Assembly (NCBI GenBank): GCA_018303405.1
Contig: JAGVYD010000009.1
Location: 259,045-322,942 of the forward strand
Direction: 5' to 3'
Origin: Candidatus Woesearchaeota archaeon
GTDB lineage: Archaea; Nanobdellota; Nanobdellia; Woesearchaeales; JABMPP01
Length of the DNA: 63,898 nt
Shown: positions 18,910 to 27,371 of the stretch, piece after piece
Numbering within the stretch: position 1 is the stretch's first letter
How the letters are laid out: each line of letters opens with the position of its first letter
Made by a program: the position numbers and the translations under genes
The notes under the pieces: generated by a model
Told to the model about the DNA's origin: nothing
Database searches by the model: none
What the model saw: the letters and a program-made list of their open reading frames with translations, nothing else

Positions 18910-19029
18910 GCGGAGGTAGCAAAGTCTGGCCAAATGCGATAGACTCAAGTTGCCATGCGTAATGTTCGCTGGACCCATGATAAATCTATTCCCTTAGTGG
19001 GTTCGCAGGTTCGAATCCTGCCCTCCGCA
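18910..19029 (+). tRNA. tRNA-Leu (anticodon CAA) with a 34-nt intron
   Basis: The acceptor GCGGAGG (18910-18916) pairs with CCTCCGC (19022-19028). The anticodon stem ATAGA (18939-18943) pairs with TCTAT (18985-18989) only if about 34 bases (18950-18983) are removed. The mature loop is then CTCAAGA with anticodon CAA (18946-18948), so the intron is at the canonical position after base 37. The variable arm is CCCTTAGTGGG and the T arm GCAGGTTCGAATCCTGC. A TATA-like CTTTTTAAAAGG is at about 18866-18877. Its 3' 41 bases are the attachment site of the 7 kb element. Confidence 0.92.
18989..19029 (+). other. Left attachment site (3' part of tRNA-Leu)
   Basis: The 41-bp sequence begins TTCCCTTAGTGG, ends CCCTCCGCA and covers the variable arm, T arm and 3' acceptor strand. 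It matches 25989-26029 except for G at 19013 versus A. It also encodes LSGFAGSNPALR of the integrase reading frame. Confidence 0.92.
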
Positions 19030-19031
19030 CC

Positions 19032-20033
19032 TCATCTTCTAATTTTATCGACGACAATTTCAAAAAGTCTGAAAATTATACACACGATTTTACACAAAAT
19101 AATGCGTATAATCTTGCCATAAATTTCGACAAAAAAGACCAGTTTTTCGAGTTTATTGACCTTCAAAACTACAGTTCTTGCCACGTAATACACTTAAAAT
19201 CCTACTACAAGAAGCACTTTCACAACAAGTCATTTGAAAGCCCTATAGAATTGCAGAAATACATACACACGAAAACTAAAGGTTTAAAGTCAATTATTAT
19301 GACTGCTCGAGTATACTTGAGATTCTTAGAGCAATACGATATGCTACAAAATGCGATTGTTTTGAAATACTTTAAAGTGCTGAAAAATAAAGAAAGCAAA
19401 AAAGACTTTTTTGTCCCAATAGACGAAGAAGTCATCAAGACTTTCAATAAAATAAAGAGTCATAGTGCATTGCGATTAATCTACTTGATATTAGCTACTT
19501 CAGGAGTGAGATATGTTGAATGTCTGTCCTTCTTAAAAGACTATGACAAAGATAAGTTTACTGTTCATTCTAACTATGTAAGCTATAATGTGTCTGAGCT
19601 TCGACACACTAAAAATATTAACAATATCTATCTGCCATTGTTTGTCTACAATCAGCTTAAACCTGTAACAAATTCATATCACTGCTTGAGACAGAAATAT
19701 CATCTCAGAAAGTGCAGTTTTTCGCTGAAATATCTTCGAAAATGGCAATACAATTTCTTGATATACAACAGTGTGCCTGAATCTGTAGCTGACTTTATTC
19801 AGGGACGAGCTAACAGGTCAATATCTGCCAATCATTACTTAGCTAGAAGCCAACAAGCTGACTTCTGGTATGCTAAAGTTTGTGACAAGCTAGAGTATCT
19901 ATTTTCTGTTATGCAGCCTCAGAAAACTAGCACAAGTTCTCAGGCATACTTGGGCGAGCTAAATTCTGTTAATTCGGTAACTATTCGAGGTGAGACAAAT
20001 GAAAGTAGGAATATACGCAAGAGTAAGCACTAA
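19032..20033 (+). CDS. int: SSV-type tyrosine integrase, C-terminal part
   Basis: The reading frame is open from a stop inside the tRNA intron, through the attachment site, to 20033. It has no proper start here because its first about 59 codons are at the other end of the element. The catalytic domain shows the first Arg in LATSGVRYVE, a Lys in LRHTKNINNIYLP, KYLRKWQYNF (the H/K-x-x-R box) and the catalytic Tyr in QGRANRSISANHYLAR. Joined through the repeat to 25852-26028 it would give about 393 residues. In the integrated state neither part alone should be a normal enzyme. The serine recombinase start overlaps its end by 35 bases. Confidence 0.9.
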   Translation, partial: SSSNFIDDNFKKSENYTHDFTQNNAYNLAINFDKKDQFFEFIDLQNYSSCHVIHLKSYYKKHFHNKSFESPIELQKYIHTKTKGLKSIIMTARVYLRFLEQYDMLQNAIVLKYFKVLKNKESKKDFFVPIDEEVIKTFNKIKSHSALRLIYLILATSGVRYVECLSFLKDYDKDKFTVHSNYVSYNVSELRHTKNINNIYLPLFVYNQLKPVTNSYHCLRQKYHLRKCSFSLKYLRKWQYNFLIYNSVPESVADFIQGRANRSISANHYLARSQQADFWYAKVCDKLEYLFSVMQPQKTSTSSQAYLGELNSVNSVTIRGETNESRNIRKSKH

Positions 20034-20589
20034 AGAGCAAAATGTCGAAAATCAAATGAGTGAGCTAACGAAATATTGTCAAGCCAGAAACTATGAAATC
20101 TTTAAAGTGTATACTGAGGTAGGAGTGTCTGGCAGCAAAGAGTCAAGACCCTCATTTGACTGCTTAATGAACGATGCTCATAAACGCAAGTTTGACATTC
20201 TGCTTGTCTGGAAACTCGACAGACTTAGCAGAAGTCTTAAGCACTTACTCAACACCTTAGACACTCTAAACTCGCTAAATATCTCATTTGTGAGCTACAA
20301 TGACAACATAGACACAACTACTCCTCAAGGCAAGCTAATGTTCCAGCTAATTGGTGCCTTTGCTGAGTTTGAAAGAGAACTAATCCGTGAGAGAGTTTGT
20401 CTTGGTCTAAGACGTGCTAGGACCCAAGGTAAAGCTCTAGGACGCAAGAAGTTAGACATAAACAAGTATCAAGTAGCACAACTTCGAAGTCAAGGCATGA
20501 GCTTAAGAACTATTGCTAAAGAACTTAATGTTAGTGTTGGAACCGTCTATAACTTGTTAAGTGTTCAAAAAACCCTTCTGCCAAAATGA
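19999..20589 (+). CDS. Serine recombinase (resolvase/invertase family)
   Basis: This 196-residue small serine recombinase catalyses DNA strand exchange through a phosphoserine link. It begins MKVGIYARVSTKEQ, with the catalytic Ser in YARVS, then QLIGAFAEFERELIRER, and has a C-terminal HTH_7-type helix-turn-helix (SLRTIAKELNVSVGTVYNLL, residues about 168-187). GGTGA (19989-19993) sets the ATG at 19999. The gene overlaps the end of int and is likely cotranscribed with it. It could resolve dimers of the excised circle or invert DNA; no inversion sites were found by eye. Confidence 0.93.
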   Translation: MKVGIYARVSTKEQNVENQMSELTKYCQARNYEIFKVYTEVGVSGSKESRPSFDCLMNDAHKRKFDILLVWKLDRLSRSLKHLLNTLDTLNSLNISFVSYNDNIDTTTPQGKLMFQLIGAFAEFERELIRERVCLGLRRARTQGKALGRKKLDINKYQVAQLRSQGMSLRTIAKELNVSVGTVYNLLSVQKTLLPK

Positions 20590-20622
20590 GTTTTATTTAT
20601 AAGTAAAGTGAGCTAATTTGAC

Positions 20623-20650
20623 TGTTCAAATAACATGTGTTTATTGAACA
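20623..20650. terminator. Inverted repeat between convergent genes
   Basis: TGTTCAAATAA (20623-20633) and TTATTGAACA (20641-20650) form an imperfect stem between the ends of the serine recombinase gene and the opposing lipoprotein gene. The position suggests a bidirectional transcription stop. This is an inference from location and symmetry only. Confidence 0.45.
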
Positions 20651-20659
20651 CCAATCTAG

Positions 20660-21631
20660 TTAGTTAGACTGTTTTACACCACTGCATACGTTATATAGCT
20701 TAGAACAATAGGGTATATCATTTTGTTTACAATCAGCATCACTAAGACATTCTACGCATTCATTTAGTTGAACGTAGGTTTCATAATTAATTTTACACTT
20801 TCTTAGAAGTATTTCATCATCTCCGGAACCAGCGTGCCATCCCCATTGGTAGCAATCAGCATTAGATGTGCACTGAACACAAGTTCCCTTCTTACATGCA
20901 GGATGATTTTTATCCTTGCAGTTATCATCAGTTGAACATTCAACACAATTATTATTGATACAATAAGGCTTGAAAGAGAGACAGTCATTATTAGAGGCAC
21001 ATTCACCACATTTGCCATTAGTTCCACAATGTGGTTTATCTCCAGATTTGCAGTCTATATCACTACTACATTCCGTGCTTACACATTTATTATCCCTACA
21101 ATAAGGTGTAGTGCTGTCACATTCACTATTGTAATTGCAACAACCAGCTATTTTTTCATGCTCACAAGTGTAAATAGTCTCCTTACTGCAAACCTCATTT
21201 GTGCAGACATCAAAATCATAGCATAATTCAGCACAATTATCAGTAAAGTATGATGCAAACCCGTCAACATACCAATTTCCTTTATCATATATCAAATGAA
21301 CAGCTGGTGATTTGAGCTGAACAAACATATTGCCGGAAACAGTATAATAAGCATAAGCATCCTTTTCATTCTGAATAACAACCTTGTCATATATTATTTG
21401 AAAATTGTTTTTGTCTACCACACTTTTTACAATCATAAAAACAGTGAAATCAGTTTCGTTTCTCAATTCCCTTAATGAAGGTGTGAAATAATGATAGAGT
21501 GAAATCCAGTCTCCATTCTGAAAGGCGATAGCAAATCCTTGTGCAGTTTGAATAGCCTTATTTTCTTTATTTGAGCAAGCTGTTAGAATTAGCAAGCTTA
21601 CAACAATAAAGAATAATTTTCTTTGTTTCGT
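20660..21631 (-). CDS. Cysteine-rich lipoprotein with a possible ACG start
   Basis: This is a surface protein of about 323 residues. Read from an ACG at 21631 the N-terminus is KQRKLFFIVVSLLILTAC: a basic start, a hydrophobic core and a lipobox (LTAC). AGGTGAG lies four bases before that ACG, and an in-frame stop precedes it. The first ATG/TTG-type alternative (TTG at 21595) would remove the basic region. Residues about 40-150 look like a small alpha/beta domain (GDWISLYHYFTPSLREL...). The rest has about five repeats of the type C-x(4-6)-DC-x(8-10)-C-x(4)-C, with EC between them. No enzymatic motif is seen. It is divergent from the winged-helix gene across a palindromic operator. Confidence 0.75.
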   Translation of the reverse strand, partial: TKQRKLFFIVVSLLILTACSNKENKAIQTAQGFAIAFQNGDWISLYHYFTPSLRELRNETDFTVFMIVKSVVDKNNFQIIYDKVVIQNEKDAYAYYTVSGNMFVQLKSPAVHLIYDKGNWYVDGFASYFTDNCAELCYDFDVCTNEVCSKETIYTCEHEKIAGCCNYNSECDSTTPYCRDNKCVSTECSSDIDCKSGDKPHCGTNGKCGECASNNDCLSFKPYCINNNCVECSTDDNCKDKNHPACKKGTCVQCTSNADCYQWGWHAGSGDDEILLRKCKINYETYVQLNECVECLSDADCKQNDIPYCSKLYNVCSGVKQSN

Positions 21632-21650
21632 GTTCTCACCTAGTTATACC

Positions 21651-21705
21651 TGTTACAATATTATGGCATCTTTTCATATATAAATCTTGGTATAATATTG
21701 TAACA
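21651..21705. promoter_or_regulatory. Divergent promoter with perfect 14-bp inverted repeat operator
   Basis: TGTTACAATATTAT (21651-21664) and ATAATATTGTAACA (21692-21705) are perfect reverse complements 27 bp apart. Between them lies CATATATAAATC (about 21675-21686), usable as a TATA box on either strand. The right arm ends at the ATG of the winged-helix gene, giving a leaderless start about 20-25 bases from the TATA box; the left arm precedes the lipoprotein ribosome site. The arms are placed to block or bridge both promoters. Confidence 0.75.
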
Positions 21706-21923
21706 TGAAACGTAAGCCCTTAGAGATAAAAAAGCAGATTCTCAAGATTCTAAAAGAAGAACGTGAGATAAGTGTCAAGAAACTAGAAAGAAAAGTCAAT
21801 ACTAACTACCAGACTATTTTGAATAACTGTGAAGAGCTTGAGTTCTTTGGGCTTGTCAAGATAAGTAAAACTAAAGAAAAGAGTCTGAATGGAAGAGAGT
21901 ATCTAACTGTAAAAATAATTTAG
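21705..21923 (+). CDS. Small winged-helix transcription regulator
   Basis: The helix pattern LEIKKQILKILKEEREISVKKLERKVNTNYQTILNNCEELEFFGLVKISKTKEK... of this 72-residue protein ends in a two-strand wing, as in MarR/ArsR-like archaeal regulators. The recognition helix would be near residues 30-46. There is no sensor domain. The start codon is at the edge of a 14-bp operator arm, so autorepression together with control of the lipoprotein is likely. The exact family is not clear. Confidence 0.75.
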   Translation: MKRKPLEIKKQILKILKEEREISVKKLERKVNTNYQTILNNCEELEFFGLVKISKTKEKSLNGREYLTVKII

Positions 21924-22285
21924 AAAATTCATTTCTGTTATGACAATTGAAATGAGCGAATGAAAAGCTGAGAGGCTATCTAGCCCTTTTATGTATAAAA
22001 TACTCAATGTCCTGAAAACTTGAAAGAAACCTTAAGCCCTTTAATATGTAAAATGACGTTTAATTTGACTAAAAAAGAGTGTTTGCCCTTGGATTCTTAA
22101 ATGCTAAAGTGTATATTGCCAGTATTGGAAATCCAAGGACCCTCTTTAATTCTTACACTCTATTAAATGTCTTCATTTATCACCTCTTTAATGCAAAGTC
22201 GCATTCTGCTTAATCACTTACTTAATCATTTAATATATATCTCACTTAATGAATATCTCTCTATTTTGATTAATATCTCTCTCTT
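21924..22285. other. A+T-rich non-coding stretch with hairpin and short repeats
   Basis: No gene is seen. CCTTGGATT (22087-22095) pairs with AATCCAAGG (22130-22138), inside a wider AGAGTGT (22076-22082) / ACACTCT (22155-22161) pair. GCCCTTTTATGTATAAAAT (from about 21980) and GCCCTTTAATATGTAAAAT (from about 22036) are near-repeats. From 22210 there are several CTTAAT and two AATATCTCTCT copies. This is a candidate replication or regulatory region of the element, but without proof. Confidence 0.4.
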
Positions 22286-22858
22286 TCATTGACTTTCTAT
22301 TTCTTTCCATAAGTAAGTCTTTCTATTCTTATTATATACGCTAAAAGTTCTATCTTTCAAATTTGTAGTCTTCTTATTTGCAGATAGATAGTTTGCCAAG
22401 CAAATAAATGCATTCTTAGACAAAGCTAATGGAAATTCAAAGCTCATAAGCAACTGTCCCGCATTTTCATTATAGCCAATAACAGAATTTATTACATATG
22501 AGACTTGCTCACCTTCTCTGCTTTTAGCAAAGTAATGATATTTCTTGCATTTCCCACTAGCTTCTTTGAAAGTTACCTGCAAATTGACTTTCTCAGGAAT
22601 CGTATTGTGCTCTCTTAGAATGCCTTCCGCAATCATCTTTTTAAATTCTTCATCATCGAATAAGCTAGATTTATCTAGATTATCAGATTCTTTATTGCCA
22701 ATTAGCTGCCACAAAAAGTCAATTCTATCATCGCTTATTGCAATTCCAAGTTTATCAGCCAATTCTTTCAGTGTCTCTTTTCTGTTATAAGGAAATAGTC
22801 CTTCTTTCTTATATTCTTTATATGTTTTTAACAAATTTATCTCTTCTTCACTAAACAT
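22286..22858 (-). CDS. Unknown element protein downstream of DUF5131
   Basis: I do not recognise this 190-residue soluble protein. The N-terminal half is helical (FSEEEINLLKTYKEYKKEGLF..., KETLKELADKLGI); the C-terminal half is mixed, with CKKYHYFAKSREGEQVSYVINSVIGYNENAGQLLMSFEFP. GGTGAT six bases upstream selects the ATG at 22858; the GTG at 22867 is an alternative. It begins five bases after the stop of the DUF5131 gene, so the two are probably one transcript. Lys/Glu-rich and A+T-rich, like the rest of the element. Confidence 0.65.
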   Translation of the reverse strand: MFSEEEINLLKTYKEYKKEGLFPYNRKETLKELADKLGIAISDDRIDFLWQLIGNKESDNLDKSSLFDDEEFKKMIAEGILREHNTIPEKVNLQVTFKEASGKCKKYHYFAKSREGEQVSYVINSVIGYNENAGQLLMSFEFPLALSKNAFICLANYLSANKKTTNLKDRTFSVYNKNRKTYLWKEIESQ

Positions 22859-22863
22859 CTTTA

Positions 22864-23562
22864 TCACCTATTTTCAACAAAAGACAAGATTTTTGCTTGC
22901 CCAACTAACCAATTAATTTTTGGAAATTCCTTTATCTTTTTTGCATATTTGAAATTGTCTTTCATCCAAACAGCAATACCAAGCTCTCTTGCCTGAGCAA
23001 TTAGCTTATCAGCCCACTCTTGCTTTGGCTTTTCTGCATCATAATTCGAATTAGCTCCAATTATAATCCAATTAATACCAGTCAAGTCTATATTTATTTC
23101 TTCTAATAATGGCTCAAATGATATAAATTTCAGATTTGCTTTAGTTTCTTTCAGAAATTGCAAATTCTTATTAGCTCTTGCCTGAGTATCTAGTGTCGTC
23201 CCAATCCACACATTCTTATATTTTCTCCAATCCCAATACTTATATCTCTCAGGATTCTTAGTTAGCAACTGAAATGTGTGCTCAGAATGTTTATTGATAT
23301 CAGCCAAAACAGCTTCAATCCAATCTACAATAACCCATTCTCCAAACATATCAGCAGCACTACCAACAAAAATCTTAGCTGACTTCTCTTTTATCTCATG
23401 AAATCGATTCAGTCTTTCAGCATGAAATCTCGGCGTCATATCATAACCCATTCTTATGAGATAACAATATGAACATCCATGAAGACATCCACTAACAGGA
23501 TTCCATGAGTAATCGCACCAGTCAATTTTATCTTGACCTTGCTTATTGAATGCTTTTACCAT
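22864..23562 (-). CDS. DUF5131 (phage Gp37/Gp68-like) protein
   Basis: This 232-residue protein has WCDYSWNPVSGCLHGCSYCYLIRMG near the N-terminus: closely spaced cysteines in CLHGCSYCY as in Fe-S-binding radical-SAM-like proteins, then IFVGSAADMFGEWV, FQLLTKNPERY, NVWIGTTLD and FISFEPLLEEI. This set of blocks defines the DUF5131/Gp37-Gp68 family, carried by many phages and mobile elements. Its biochemical function is not established. GGAGGTGAT upstream supports the ATG at 23562 rather than a start 13 codons earlier. It heads a two-gene unit with the unknown gene downstream. Confidence 0.85.
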   Translation of the reverse strand: MVKAFNKQGQDKIDWCDYSWNPVSGCLHGCSYCYLIRMGYDMTPRFHAERLNRFHEIKEKSAKIFVGSAADMFGEWVIVDWIEAVLADINKHSEHTFQLLTKNPERYKYWDWRKYKNVWIGTTLDTQARANKNLQFLKETKANLKFISFEPLLEEINIDLTGINWIIIGANSNYDAEKPKQEWADKLIAQARELGIAVWMKDNFKYAKKIKEFPKINWLVGQAKILSFVENR

Positions 23563-23648
23563 TCTATCACCTCCTTTATAGCTCTCGCTAATATATTTCA
23601 AAATTCAAACAAGTTTAGCGAATCGTTAATTCAAATTACTAATAGAAA

Positions 23649-23825
23649 TCATAACTTTATATCACCCCCTCTTTCGATAGAGATGATTCTATTTCTTGCA
23701 ATTTCATAGATTTTGTTGCTTTTAGAAATCACAACAAAGTTGCTATCTTCCTTGAGAATTACGCCTTTAATAGCTATATCTTTGCCATTATCACTAAAGA
23801 CAATCTTATCTTTATATTCATTCAT
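23649..23825 (-). CDS. Small unknown protein (58 residues)
   Basis: The short minus-strand frame begins MNEYKDKIVFSDNGKDIAIKG and continues VILKEDSNFVVISKSNKIYEIAR, then ends IERGGDIKL. The alternating pattern suggests a small beta-barrel like those of Sm or SH3 proteins. It lies 87 bases before the DUF5131 gene on the same strand, with a TATA-like GATTTATATAC (about 23895-23905) upstream. The composition of a real protein and the position favour a gene, but the size leaves doubt. Confidence 0.45.
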   Translation of the reverse strand: MNEYKDKIVFSDNGKDIAIKGVILKEDSNFVVISKSNKIYEIARNRIISIERGGDIKL

Positions 23826-23980
23826 TTCTAATTTTCATCTCTATTGCATTTCTAAGAATTCACTTTACTTCAATATCTATTATAAATGTATTAGTATATA
23901 AATCTTTCTATTTTTCACTATCAAATAGTAGTCCTTAAATCAGATTTTCATATATGAAGATAAATATAAAGATATTATAT

Positions 23981-24112
23981 ATGAAAATAATTAGTTCATG
24001 CTCGATAAAAGAATTCTGTTTTGTTAATGGCTATAAAGCTCTAACAGCAACAGACCTAGTGACTGAGCTAGAAAGAAGTAAAAAGCAAAGAAGCATCGGG
24101 AAACCCAGCTAG
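23981..24112 (+). CDS. Possible small protein (43 residues)
   Basis: The frame reads MKIISSCSIKEFCFVNGYKA and continues LTATDLVTELERSKKQRSIG. It starts with an ATG about 22 bases after a TATA-like AAATATAAAG, so a leaderless transcript is possible. The inverted repeat AGCTTGGT / ACCAAGCT (about 24117-24155) follows its stop. Nothing identifies a family, and chance is a fair alternative. I see nothing else between 23826 and 24206 except the promoter of the next gene. Confidence 0.3.
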   Translation: MKIISSCSIKEFCFVNGYKALTATDLVTELERSKKQRSIGKPS

Positions 24113-24206
24113 AGCCAGCTTGGTGTCAAAAGGTGAGTAGTATCTCTACCAAGCTTTATATATGGTAAATTTCTAGAATTGTGTGAATAAGCAATGGAGA
24201 AGAAAA

Positions 24207-25058
24207 ATGTCACTTACAGTAACAAAGGAATATTTTTATAAGAACTTTGACAAAGAAGATAATAGATATGTTGGTGACGATATAAATTCTGAGAAAGCAA
24301 GAAGTTTTGATTTCAAAAACCATCAACAGATTGTCAAAGACATTAAGGAAATCTGTCTAGACAGCCCATTAAAAATTGAACGAATGCGAAATATTGTGAG
24401 TGTTTGTCTGAATATACTCATTGAAAATAAGAGAGACATTAATAAAATTTCAACTCTAAAAGAATTGTTTCAGCAATTTTCATTCTTTATGGCAACTACC
24501 AGTGAAGATGAAGTTTATTATGAATGTCCCTGCACACAACCCTATCTTTATGAACTAGATTGGTTTAACGTAAAGGGAACAGATAATGTTTTTTATGTTG
24601 GTTCAGAGTGTGTGAACAAGTTTGGAGATGAGGAATTCCAGAGTGACCATAAGAAGAAATTAAAAGAACAACTTACATTAGTTAAAATAGACAAAATTTT
24701 AGAAGGTCTAAAAACCAGTAAGGAAGACTTATTATTTTTTTGCAGGATTAATTATATTGAAATTTATGACAGCTTAAGGAGTAGTGATAGTTTAACTAAC
24801 CCGCAGATGGACAAGCTACAACGGGTTGTTTCAAAAGAATGGAAAACATTCTTTAGTATAGTCAATGGGTCTAACTATGATGTAGGAGATTATGTTAAAG
24901 AACATAGACCTGCTTTTAGACATTATTTAGAGTTGATTGAAGATAGATATCAGCCACTGTTTGTAGCATTGCTTAGAAAGAGAAACTTAACTGGAAAACA
25001 ATATAATGCATTAGGAGTGAGTGGAAAAATAATACTCAGAAAACTGCGAAGCGTTTAA
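24207..25058 (+). CDS. Unknown element protein with cysteine pairs
   Basis: This is a protein of about 283 residues with no recognised family. A central segment has YYECPCTQPYLYELDW...VFYVGSECVNKFGDEEF (about residues 105-150), whose CxC and later Cys may bind zinc, followed by a helical C-terminal half rich in Lys. The ATG at 24207 has GGAGAAG four bases upstream; a GTG at 24183 would be leaderless from the TATA-like TTTATATA (24155-24162). It is convergent with the nuclease-like gene. Confidence 0.65.
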   Translation: MSLTVTKEYFYKNFDKEDNRYVGDDINSEKARSFDFKNHQQIVKDIKEICLDSPLKIERMRNIVSVCLNILIENKRDINKISTLKELFQQFSFFMATTSEDEVYYECPCTQPYLYELDWFNVKGTDNVFYVGSECVNKFGDEEFQSDHKKKLKEQLTLVKIDKILEGLKTSKEDLLFFCRINYIEIYDSLRSSDSLTNPQMDKLQRVVSKEWKTFFSIVNGSNYDVGDYVKEHRPAFRHYLELIEDRYQPLFVALLRKRNLTGKQYNALGVSGKIILRKLRSV

Positions 25059-25088
25059 AAGTAACTACAATCTTAATTGGGATATTAT

Positions 25089-25583
25089 TTATTTAATATT
25101 GGAAAAACGTCTTTTTAATATCTCTCGTTTAACATTTTCAGGAGACATTGCTTGCTTTTTAGTTATACGAATAACACCCGACTTTCCAAAAGGTAACTCG
25201 TTCTGAGGAATACCTTTATAGACTAATCCCATTGAAATGGTCACAAGAGATTCAATAATTCTCATCTCAACTTCTTCATCACCCTTATAGATAAATATTA
25301 GTGAATCAACATCCTCTACTAAAAAAGACCGAATTACATCTGCAATAATGATATCTTGCTTTTGTTCTTCACTATCGAGAATTTCAAATATCATTTTTTT
25401 ATTATTGCGAAGTTTGAAATATACATCTGGTTGATAGTTAACAACTAACTTTGAATTGTAGTCGGTGATTGACAATGGATGACCATTTCCTGTTAGCACT
25501 TTCTTAACTCTTTTGCGTTTTTGTAGCTCTTCTCCAACTAAAATAACTCCTTTTTGAACTGTGGAATGATAGAATGATACCAT
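25089..25583 (-). CDS. Unknown protein with possible PD-(D/E)XK nuclease fold
   Basis: The middle of this 164-residue protein reads VNYQPDVYFKLRNNKKMIFEILDSEEQKQD, with a QPD then, about 15 residues later, FEIL. This arrangement resembles the core of PD-(D/E)XK endonuclease-like domains (PD...E-x-hydrophobic), and a helix DVIRSFLVEDVDSLIFIYKG follows. The catalytic Lys is not evident, so this is tentative. GGAG precedes the ATG at 25583. A host-defence or DNA-processing role in the element is possible. The 25602-25851 stretch before the integrase part holds no other gene. Confidence 0.5.
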   Translation of the reverse strand: MVSFYHSTVQKGVILVGEELQKRKRVKKVLTGNGHPLSITDYNSKLVVNYQPDVYFKLRNNKKMIFEILDSEEQKQDIIIADVIRSFLVEDVDSLIFIYKGDEEVEMRIIESLVTISMGLVYKGIPQNELPFGKSGVIRITKKQAMSPENVKREILKRRFSNIK

Positions 25584-25851
25584 AAATTCATCTCCACGCA
25601 AAAAAGGATACTTTCCTTCTTTTTCTGCTTCCTTTTTTATGAACGTAAAATGACACTCTTCTTCTCGTCATATTACCACCCCCCCATAGTCAAATCGAAT
25701 AGATTCTTACTTAAAAACACTTACAAATCTATTATAATTTATTTATATTATTAAAGTTTATTAATCTCCACTCTGTCGAGGCTACCAAACCTTTTATACT
25801 AATATCTCCTCAATAATGTGCATACTATATACATCGTTCATACGCATAAAA

Positions 25852-26028
25852 ATGAAAACTCGAATCAATCTCACAATCGAAAATCAGCTTGTGAATTTGC
25901 TGAAAAGAAAGCGAATAAATATATCTAAATACGTCGAGAAACTTGTAACAGCAAACTTATTAAATATGTGTTCGAATCAAGACAATTGTTCCCTTAGTGG
26001 GTTCGCAGGTTCAAATCCTGCCCTCCGC
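25852..26028 (+). CDS. int: SSV-type integrase, N-terminal part (to the attachment site)
   Basis: The 59 codons before the end of the repeat read MKTRINLTIENQLVNLLKRK..., INISKYVEKLVTANLL..., ending CSLSGFAGSNPALR, the peptide that is also translated from the left attachment site. The start resembles the ribbon-helix-helix N-terminus of archaeal suicide integrases. The frame runs on into host DNA to 26067 after a different 13 residues. An ATG at 25816 is an alternative start. Excision would fuse this part to 19032-20033. Confidence 0.88.
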
Positions 26029-26029
26029 A
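25989..26029 (+). other. Right attachment site (copy of tRNA-Leu 3' part)
   Basis: The direct repeat of 18989-19029 has 40 of 41 bases identical (A at 26013 in place of G). Sequence upstream is not tRNA-like, so this is only the fragment generated by integration. Confidence 0.92.
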
Positions 26030-26076
26030 TACATCTCTCTAAGTTTATTAGCGATAAAAATAAATAGAGCACAATA

Positions 26077-26751
26077 ATGAATGTAAACATGCCGGCAAAA
26101 AAGATTACAATTCCGATTCTCATACATGTGGCAGGCGTATACAGACACACTGAAATCCATGGGAAAAAAGAGAGAAAGAAAAGCGATGCCTGGGTCAGGT
26201 ATATTAAAAAAATAATCAAGAAAAACAAAGAAAATACAATAAGCGAATTATTGGATAAAAGTAAACCTGTATTTCCGAAAATTACCAGGGCAATTACATC
26301 TTTTGGAACTTACCTAGATGGAGATTGTCATTTTGAACAGCAAGTGCTGAATATTATTCACAGAAATCAAAAAAGATTTAACTTGCTTCAACACTTAGGA
26401 TTTAACAATAATTCACAAAATGTTGGCAAATCACCTTTAAGCAATATTGAATTAGAATTCATAGTCATGGGCGGCGAGCTTAATAACTGTCATTTGACAG
26501 AATTTAAGGATGTATTGGCGTGGTGTGTTAAGAATGGGGGAAAATTTTCCAGATTAACAATTATTTTGCCAGCTGAAGGCATATTTGAAAGTGCGGTTCC
26601 TGCAGATCAGGTATACAATAAATATATACTGCATGGTTCTAATTATCATGACGTTTTTGAGAAGTACATTGAAGCATGCCATAGATATCCAACTCAAATT
26701 CAGATTGACCATTCTCAAAAATCTATCGTTGTGACAGTTATCAAGAAATGA
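26077..26751 (+). CDS. Hypothetical protein
   Basis: This 224-residue protein just outside the right attachment site is of unknown family. It begins MNVNMPAKKITIPILIHVAGVY and contains a region ELEFIVMGGELNNCHLTEFKDVLAWCVKNGG, then LTIILPAEGIFESAV and C-terminal beta strands. The N-terminal hydrophobic patch is short and not a clear membrane segment. The start could also be the ATG at 26089. It may be chromosomal or left from an older insertion. Confidence 0.55.
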   Translation: MNVNMPAKKITIPILIHVAGVYRHTEIHGKKERKKSDAWVRYIKKIIKKNKENTISELLDKSKPVFPKITRAITSFGTYLDGDCHFEQQVLNIIHRNQKRFNLLQHLGFNNNSQNVGKSPLSNIELEFIVMGGELNNCHLTEFKDVLAWCVKNGGKFSRLTIILPAEGIFESAVPADQVYNKYILHGSNYHDVFEKYIEACHRYPTQIQIDHSQKSIVVTVIKK

Positions 26752-26879
26752 GCAGATTTCTGCCTTATGGTTTTTATATTCAGACTACCAAATTGGTTAT
26801 ACTTGCCTACTATCATCCTGACATTTTCTTGGCTTTTCATTTGCCAAGCTTTTTAAATTTTATATCAGTTATATGCTCT

Positions 26880-27371
26880 ATGGAGCGCAAGAGAATATTA
26901 ATCCCATTAAGCAGTAAGAGTTCAAACTCCAAAACTGATATACCTAAATTTACCTTGCCCCAAAGATTGGTATTCAACGCATTGACGCTTCTTTTTAACA
27001 ACAGGATGTATCATTTTGATGATGTCCATGAACTCAATGATTATCTTGCAGGCCATGTGTTTAGCTATCTGGACAGAATTTCATTAAAGGATGTTTTAAT
27101 TGAAAATGTTTCGCCTTCTGGAGATGGGACTCTGCAGTATATCACTCTTGCTGACCCTGACGGGCGGAGCACCATAGATGCACTGGCGACACTGCCCAAA
27201 ATAGACACAAGGGACGGATTACCTGAGGATAAATATGAGATGCTTAAAGCTTCGGAAGGGTTGCGCGGGAATGTAATCATCAGAAGATATGAAATGCCTT
27301 TGTCTGCTGTTAACTATATTGTCAATTTTGAGTCTGACCATCGCGGCCAAGTGCTGAGCCAGTCCCGCTGA
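26880..27371 (+). CDS. Hypothetical protein
   Basis: This 163-residue soluble protein is of unknown family. It begins MERKRILIPLSSKSSNSK and contains TLPQRLVFNALTLLFNNRMYHFDDVHELNDYL and later IRRYEMPLSAVNYIVNFESD. The ATG at 26880 is chosen because a TATA-like CTTTTTAAATTTTAT lies about 25 bases before it; the longer frame from 26748 overlaps the upstream gene and would begin with unlikely hydrophobic sequence. Confidence 0.55.
   Translation: MERKRILIPLSSKSSNSKTDIPKFTLPQRLVFNALTLLFNNRMYHFDDVHELNDYLAGHVFSYLDRISLKDVLIENVSPSGDGTLQYITLADPDGRSTIDALATLPKIDTRDGLPEDKYEMLKASEGLRGNVIIRRYEMPLSAVNYIVNFESDHRGQVLSQSR

Follow-up and report, generated by a model that had tools for sequence, protein, structure and literature searches.

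We analysed a 63,898-nucleotide stretch of contig JAGVYD010000009.1 from a Candidatus Woesearchaeota archaeon (hereafter the window), in which a tRNA-Leu(CAA) gene is followed by a 7000-bp segment with a tyrosine integrase gene divided between its two ends (Table 1). The segment lies between two 41-nt direct repeats, regarded here as the attachment (att) sites attL and attR, which are identical at 40 of 41 positions and spaced by exactly 7000 bp, as the initial annotation had claimed. About 1e-12 such repeat pairs would be expected by chance in 64 kb. The segment is AT-rich, with a GC fraction of 0.328 compared with 0.437 in the window. The segment is very probably an integrated mobile element with a suicidal SSV-type tyrosine integrase of the PF16795 family.

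Table 1. Features of the 7000-bp element and its target gene in the window; int(N) and int(C) denote the parts of the integrase gene, and pLDDT is the predicted local distance difference test score
Feature	Position	Strand	Evidence
tRNA-Leu(CAA), target gene (attB side), anticodon-loop intron probably 18950-18983	18910-19029	+	ARAGORN intron mode, acceptor stem
int(C), C-terminal integrase part with core-binding and PF16795 catalytic domains, KxxR and Tyr	18984-20033	+	PF16795 4e-34, SSV1 Int 4e-10, model pLDDT 82, fold match
attL, first 41-bp repeat copy, 3' part of tRNA	18989-19029	+	repeat comparison
Serine recombinase (resolvase/invertase type), overlaps int(C) end	19999-20589	+	PF00239 6.6e-50
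Putative lipoprotein, cysteine-rich; relative in G003 element	20660-21595	-	phmmer 1e-25; no Pfam match
Small winged-helix DNA-binding protein	21705-21923	+	HTH_11 1.6e-5
Protein without named function, conserved partner of DUF5131 gene	22286-22858	-	relative beside DUF5131 in G004 element, 1.5e-29
DUF5131 (phage Gp37/Gp68) radical-SAM protein; matches PADLOC candidate-defence models	22864-23562	-	G004 relative 5.7e-73
Small protein	23649-23825	-	no family match over cut-off
Protein	24207-25058	+	no family match; model pLDDT 35, meaningless
Protein	25089-25583	-	no family match
Putative int promoter element GGCTACCAAACCTTTTATACT, upstream of int(N)	25780-25800	+	motif also upstream of both other int(N) copies in genome
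int(N), N-terminal integrase part with a ribbon-helix-helix domain	25852-26067	+	CcdA (PF07362) 5.5e-5, over cut-off; frame joins int(C)
attR, second 41-bp repeat copy	25989-26029	+	repeat comparison

Attachment sites and the tRNA target

The left repeat had been described as the 3' end of an intact tRNA-Leu(CAA), and ARAGORN, which missed this gene in its default mode, finds it at 18910-19031 when introns are allowed. Its acceptor stem, GCGGAGG/CCTCCGC, can be read directly. ARAGORN gives the intron a length of 23 nt; an intron of 34 nt is probably correct, as it fits the ATAGA/TCTAT anticodon stem better. The first position of the 41-bp repeat is the last base of the 3' anticodon stem, and the repeat includes the variable arm, the T arm, and the acceptor end. 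The att site corresponds to the 3' part of the tRNA, and the tRNA gene stays intact. A search for a third att copy to the right of the element found none. The AT-rich stretch at 26077-27371, to the right of attR, contains two unknown ORFs (open reading frames) and could be an older insertion.

Structure of the divided integrase

The repeat is coding: LSGFAGSNPALR is read in frame at both ends of the element, and joining int(N) to int(C) gives a single stop-free ORF of 393 residues, as had been predicted. The initial annotation placed the start of int(C) at 18989; its frame and its end at 20033 hold, and the frame is already open from 18984, directly behind the TAA stop codon at 18981-18983. 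The first in-frame start codons of int(C) are TTG at 19251 and ATG at 19299. At the other end, int(N) runs through attR to a stop codon at 26065-26067. The sole mismatch between the repeats (TCG/TCA, both Ser) is synonymous in the integrase frame.

The joined protein matches PF16795 (Phage_integr_3; 4.4e-34, 118 bits with a cut-off of 27) and the PHROG integrase family 5127. Its residues 2-348 can be aligned with the integrases encoded by the Thermococcales plasmids pGE2 and pT26-2, with 25.7-27.2% identity over 88%. The alignment with integrases of SSV-type viruses and pleomorphic proviruses covers the C-terminal half, and SSV integrases show 25-33% identity over 39-52%. Structures of the SSV1 integrase catalytic domain were the only matches by sequence in the Protein Data Bank (4e-10), with KxxR and the Tyr aligned, and SSV1 Int was also the top fold match (TMt 0.86) for the AlphaFold model of int(C), which has a mean pLDDT of 82. 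The joined ends therefore align as one integrase, for which SSV1 Int is the best structural match by both sequence and fold.

The N-terminal domain and the att-encoded linker

All ten int(N) products tested are ribbon-helix-helix (RHH)-like. CcdA (PF07362) was the best Pfam match for eight int(N) of the order Woesearchaeales and for pT26-2 and pGE2, exceeding the curated cut-off in four. Residues 1-38 of the int(C) model are disordered, with the att-encoded stretch at their start. In this model, att encodes part of a 38-residue disordered linker between the RHH domain and the core-binding/catalytic part, a location where att could change without harm. As would be expected of a linker, the reading frame of att differs between elements (GSNP or TRVRI), including elements at the same tRNA-Leu. 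The N-terminal part of SSV integrases is responsible for multimerisation (PMC8371274), and by analogy the RHH domain might have this role in the window's integrase, too. Apart from the int(N) copies, the putative promoter motif has only one match, with two mismatches; the control gave 0.

Related elements in Woesearchaeales

We searched with PF16795 and, by alignment, through 353 genomes of the same order, and identified at least eight relatives, which form one clade with the window's integrase; all matches in a class-wide sample of 378 genomes fall in this order. The nearest of the genomes searched are from other families, for which little synteny would be expected. The nine integrases are found at five tRNA species (Leu-CAA three times, Phe-GAA and Arg-TCG twice, Glu-TTC and Pro-CGG once), and in all nine int(C) begins inside the 3' end of the tRNA (Table 2). 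In all eight elements of this design with both ends, including the window's, the joined ends form a single ORF; frame alone would give a chance of (1/3)^8 for this agreement. We considered G003 as an intact integrase with a whole tRNA inside and rejected this assignment; attR and int(N) of this element lie on a different contig.

Table 2. Elements of the clade with their tRNA targets
Element	tRNA	Repeat	Length or remark
Window element	Leu-CAA	41 bp	7000 bp
L040 = G126	Leu-CAA	57 bp	9687 bp
G003	Leu-CAA		ends on two contigs
G004	Phe-GAA	37 bp	8668 bp
G104	Phe-GAA	63 bp	6774 bp
G041	Glu-TTC	28 bp	11083 bp
G264	Arg-TCG	16 bp	7370 bp
G013	Pro-CGG	41 bp	15414 bp
G019	Arg-TCG		second end not found

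The clade of the order was supported (99/100) in a tree of 50 integrases and is separate from the SSV integrases. The three Leu integrases do not group together in this tree, and a single Leu clade is not rejected (p 0.213), which bears on whether targets were switched between tRNAs that have a long variable arm and those that lack one. An intact gene for a PF16795-type integrase of 346 residues (L118, G331:C97:3155-4162) was found on a 14-kb contig without a tRNA, and may represent a more distant family in a free or unsplit state.

Polarity of the attachment site

The tRNA T-loop motif is antisense (GGGATTTGAACC type) in the integrase genes of SSV1, SSV2, pT26-2, and pGE2, whereas att lies in tRNA sense within the integrase gene in nine of nine elements of the order. 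With a sense att, it is therefore int(C), not int(N), that is fused behind the tRNA. Polarity requires about four changes on the 50-integrase tree, where Bathyarchaeota and one unplaced archaeon also have sense forms. Six PF16795-type integrases were found in the unplaced archaeal bin JALTZZ01 (archaeon S141; L053-L058), five of which lie next to a tRNA gene, a different one in each case, all in tRNA sense.

Cargo of the element

The integrase is the only gene common to all elements compared. Relatives of the window element's DUF5131 gene and of its partner occur in G004, and a relative of its lipoprotein in G003; we found no virus genes in the window element. DUF5131 occurs on many bacterial plasmids; its matches to defence models are a lead suggesting that it could act in defence. 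The serine recombinase gene overlapping the tyrosine integrase gene was not seen in the other elements compared.

A second hotspot at tRNA-Phe

Contig C16 of the same genome (G000:C16:40072-53775; L125, L120) carries a tRNA-Phe(GAA) and, behind it, an 8991-bp unit with a perfect 52-bp repeat at its boundaries. Beyond this unit are three further att remnants, two of which are preceded by int(N) remnants of the window's integrase family without int(C). The unit's own integrase is a PF00589 (Xer-like) protein unrelated to the window's, and its frame runs through the att. Such frames through a tRNA att were found for L125:10116-11015 on C16, L160, and L161, with relatives of the C16 integrase in G083 and G164. 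This PF00589 clade occupies tRNA-Phe, tRNA-Arg, and a third tRNA, and in three genomes the joined ends extend the protein by an N-terminus of roughly 23-40 residues. Because the cut removes only this short N-terminus and the C16 integrase has an ATG inside the tRNA intron, the split may not inactivate these enzymes.

We tentatively suggest, while regarding it as somewhat doubtful, that integrase genes carrying their own att arose twice in Woesearchaeales, in the PF16795 clade and in a milder form in the PF00589 clade, and that the cut-off RHH int(N) has been kept as a free DNA-binding regulator. The regulator is suggested because three int(N) copies with one promoter motif survive in the genome, two of them without int(C). 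A module of an ERCC4 nuclease and a small protein is common to C16 (L120:1341-3082) and the G013 and G019 elements; in C16 and G013 only, it also includes a protein of 325-337 residues with an ATPase-like stretch. The presence of this module in elements with different integrase types suggests integrase swapping.

Discussion

The arrangement at the locus led us to infer a self-splitting integration. In the circular form, attP would lie inside int, in the linker between the N-terminal RHH and the core-binding and catalytic domains. Recombination by the enzyme would take place between attP and the 3' part of tRNA-Leu(CAA), immediately downstream of the intron, and would rebuild the tRNA using the element's copy of its 3' end. 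This would cut the integrase gene in two: int(C) would be joined directly downstream of the tRNA, and int(N) would remain, together with its own promoter, at the opposite end of the element. Lacking a complete integrase, the element might then be trapped until a related element provided the enzyme in trans. The SSV-type (suicide) mode, already proposed in the initial annotation, is supported by the PF16795 domain, the split gene, and the seven further both-ended elements behaving identically.

Several observations weigh against this interpretation. The window element is known here in integrated form alone, from an assembly, and viral contigs searched for close relatives and att copies yielded no free forms. 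Family searches of the element's proteins recognised no replication gene, which makes an autonomous circle uncertain. The identity to pT26-2 Int is only 26-27%, and no second repeat was found within about 50 kb for G019.

Integration might instead be regulated rather than terminal, if the element were excised jointly by int(N) and int(C) products that are made separately, or with int(C) expressed from the tRNA transcript. In favour of this, the tRNA promoter lies upstream of int(C) in the sense polarity, and the promoter motif of int(N) is retained; in Thermococcus, a catalytically dead IntpTN3 was able to rescue the excision of TKV4, which suggests expression of its Int(C) (PMC8371274). However, the available start codons would produce a separate IntC without the linker and much of the region before the catalytic domain, and IntN and IntC of SSV2 showed no interaction in solution without DNA (PMC8371274), so we consider this unlikely. 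The 40/41 repeats, the intact frames on both sides, the kept catalytic motifs, and a low GC content unlike that of the flanks make it very improbable that the segment is a dead relic, in which repeats and frames of an old insertion survived by accident around domesticated host genes, despite the decayed int(N) remnants at tRNA-Phe in the same genome and the lack of a recognisable replication gene. Elements of the pNOB8 type have an intact PF00589 integrase gene adjacent to the tRNA and in the same orientation, a position like that of int(C) (PMC3293823), and the split could then be a coincidence of tRNA-derived frames. This is hardly conceivable for a divided PF16795 integrase whose int(C) has no start codon near the tRNA, whose int(N) is needed for the alignment with pT26-2 Int from residue 2, and whose joined frames agree in eight of eight elements.

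Judged from its sequence, the suicidal element has the hallmarks of SSV-type integrases, namely the PF16795 domain, a presumed attP within int with a joined ORF, and an att in the 40-50 bp range in an intact tRNA. With pT26-2 and pGE2 it shares PF16795, attP inside int, an att at the tRNA 3' part, an RHH-like N-terminal domain, the use of several tRNAs, and full-length alignment. It differs in the att polarity, the host phylum, and the plasmid core genes, which were not seen in the window element. Badel et al. define the pT26-2 family by at least 30% identity over 60% (PMC8371274); with its lower identity and opposite polarity, the integrase falls outside this family. SSV1 and SSV2 (Fuselloviridae) have the suicidal split, the PF16795-type catalytic fold, and an att of 41-44 bp at the tRNA 3' part; their att is antisense, their IntN does not appear RHH-like by eye, and the partial alignment and separate clade place the window's integrase outside their family as well. 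The suicidal pTN3 integrase of Thermococcus nautili has a 41-bp att in tRNA-Leu, and its int(C) is transcribable from the tRNA promoter according to the literature, whereas the window element uses the tRNA 3' part and the tRNA keeps its promoter. NitEve-E3, a cryptic integrated element of Thaumarchaeota compared by its description only (PMC6563490), has an SSV1-like integrase split on integration and no virus genes, but another host.

The self-splitting mechanism is already known, and what is new is the lineage and the reversed polarity of attP. With an identity below the 30% family threshold and the opposite att polarity, the clade is therefore a variant of this mechanism. Suicidal integrases have been described from Sulfolobales, Thermococcales, and their kin; in the literature searched, we found no report of such an element in DPANN or Woesearchaeota, although papers beyond those searched could contain one. 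The elements described here open the mobilome of this lineage. They extend a mechanism of heat-loving archaea to a small-genome DPANN order, where it has its own clade, five tRNA species, and a catalytic half abutting the tRNA. The domain layout, with a linker between a putative dimerising domain and the enzyme, might be a simple reason why self-splitting is tolerated and why the targets can be changed.
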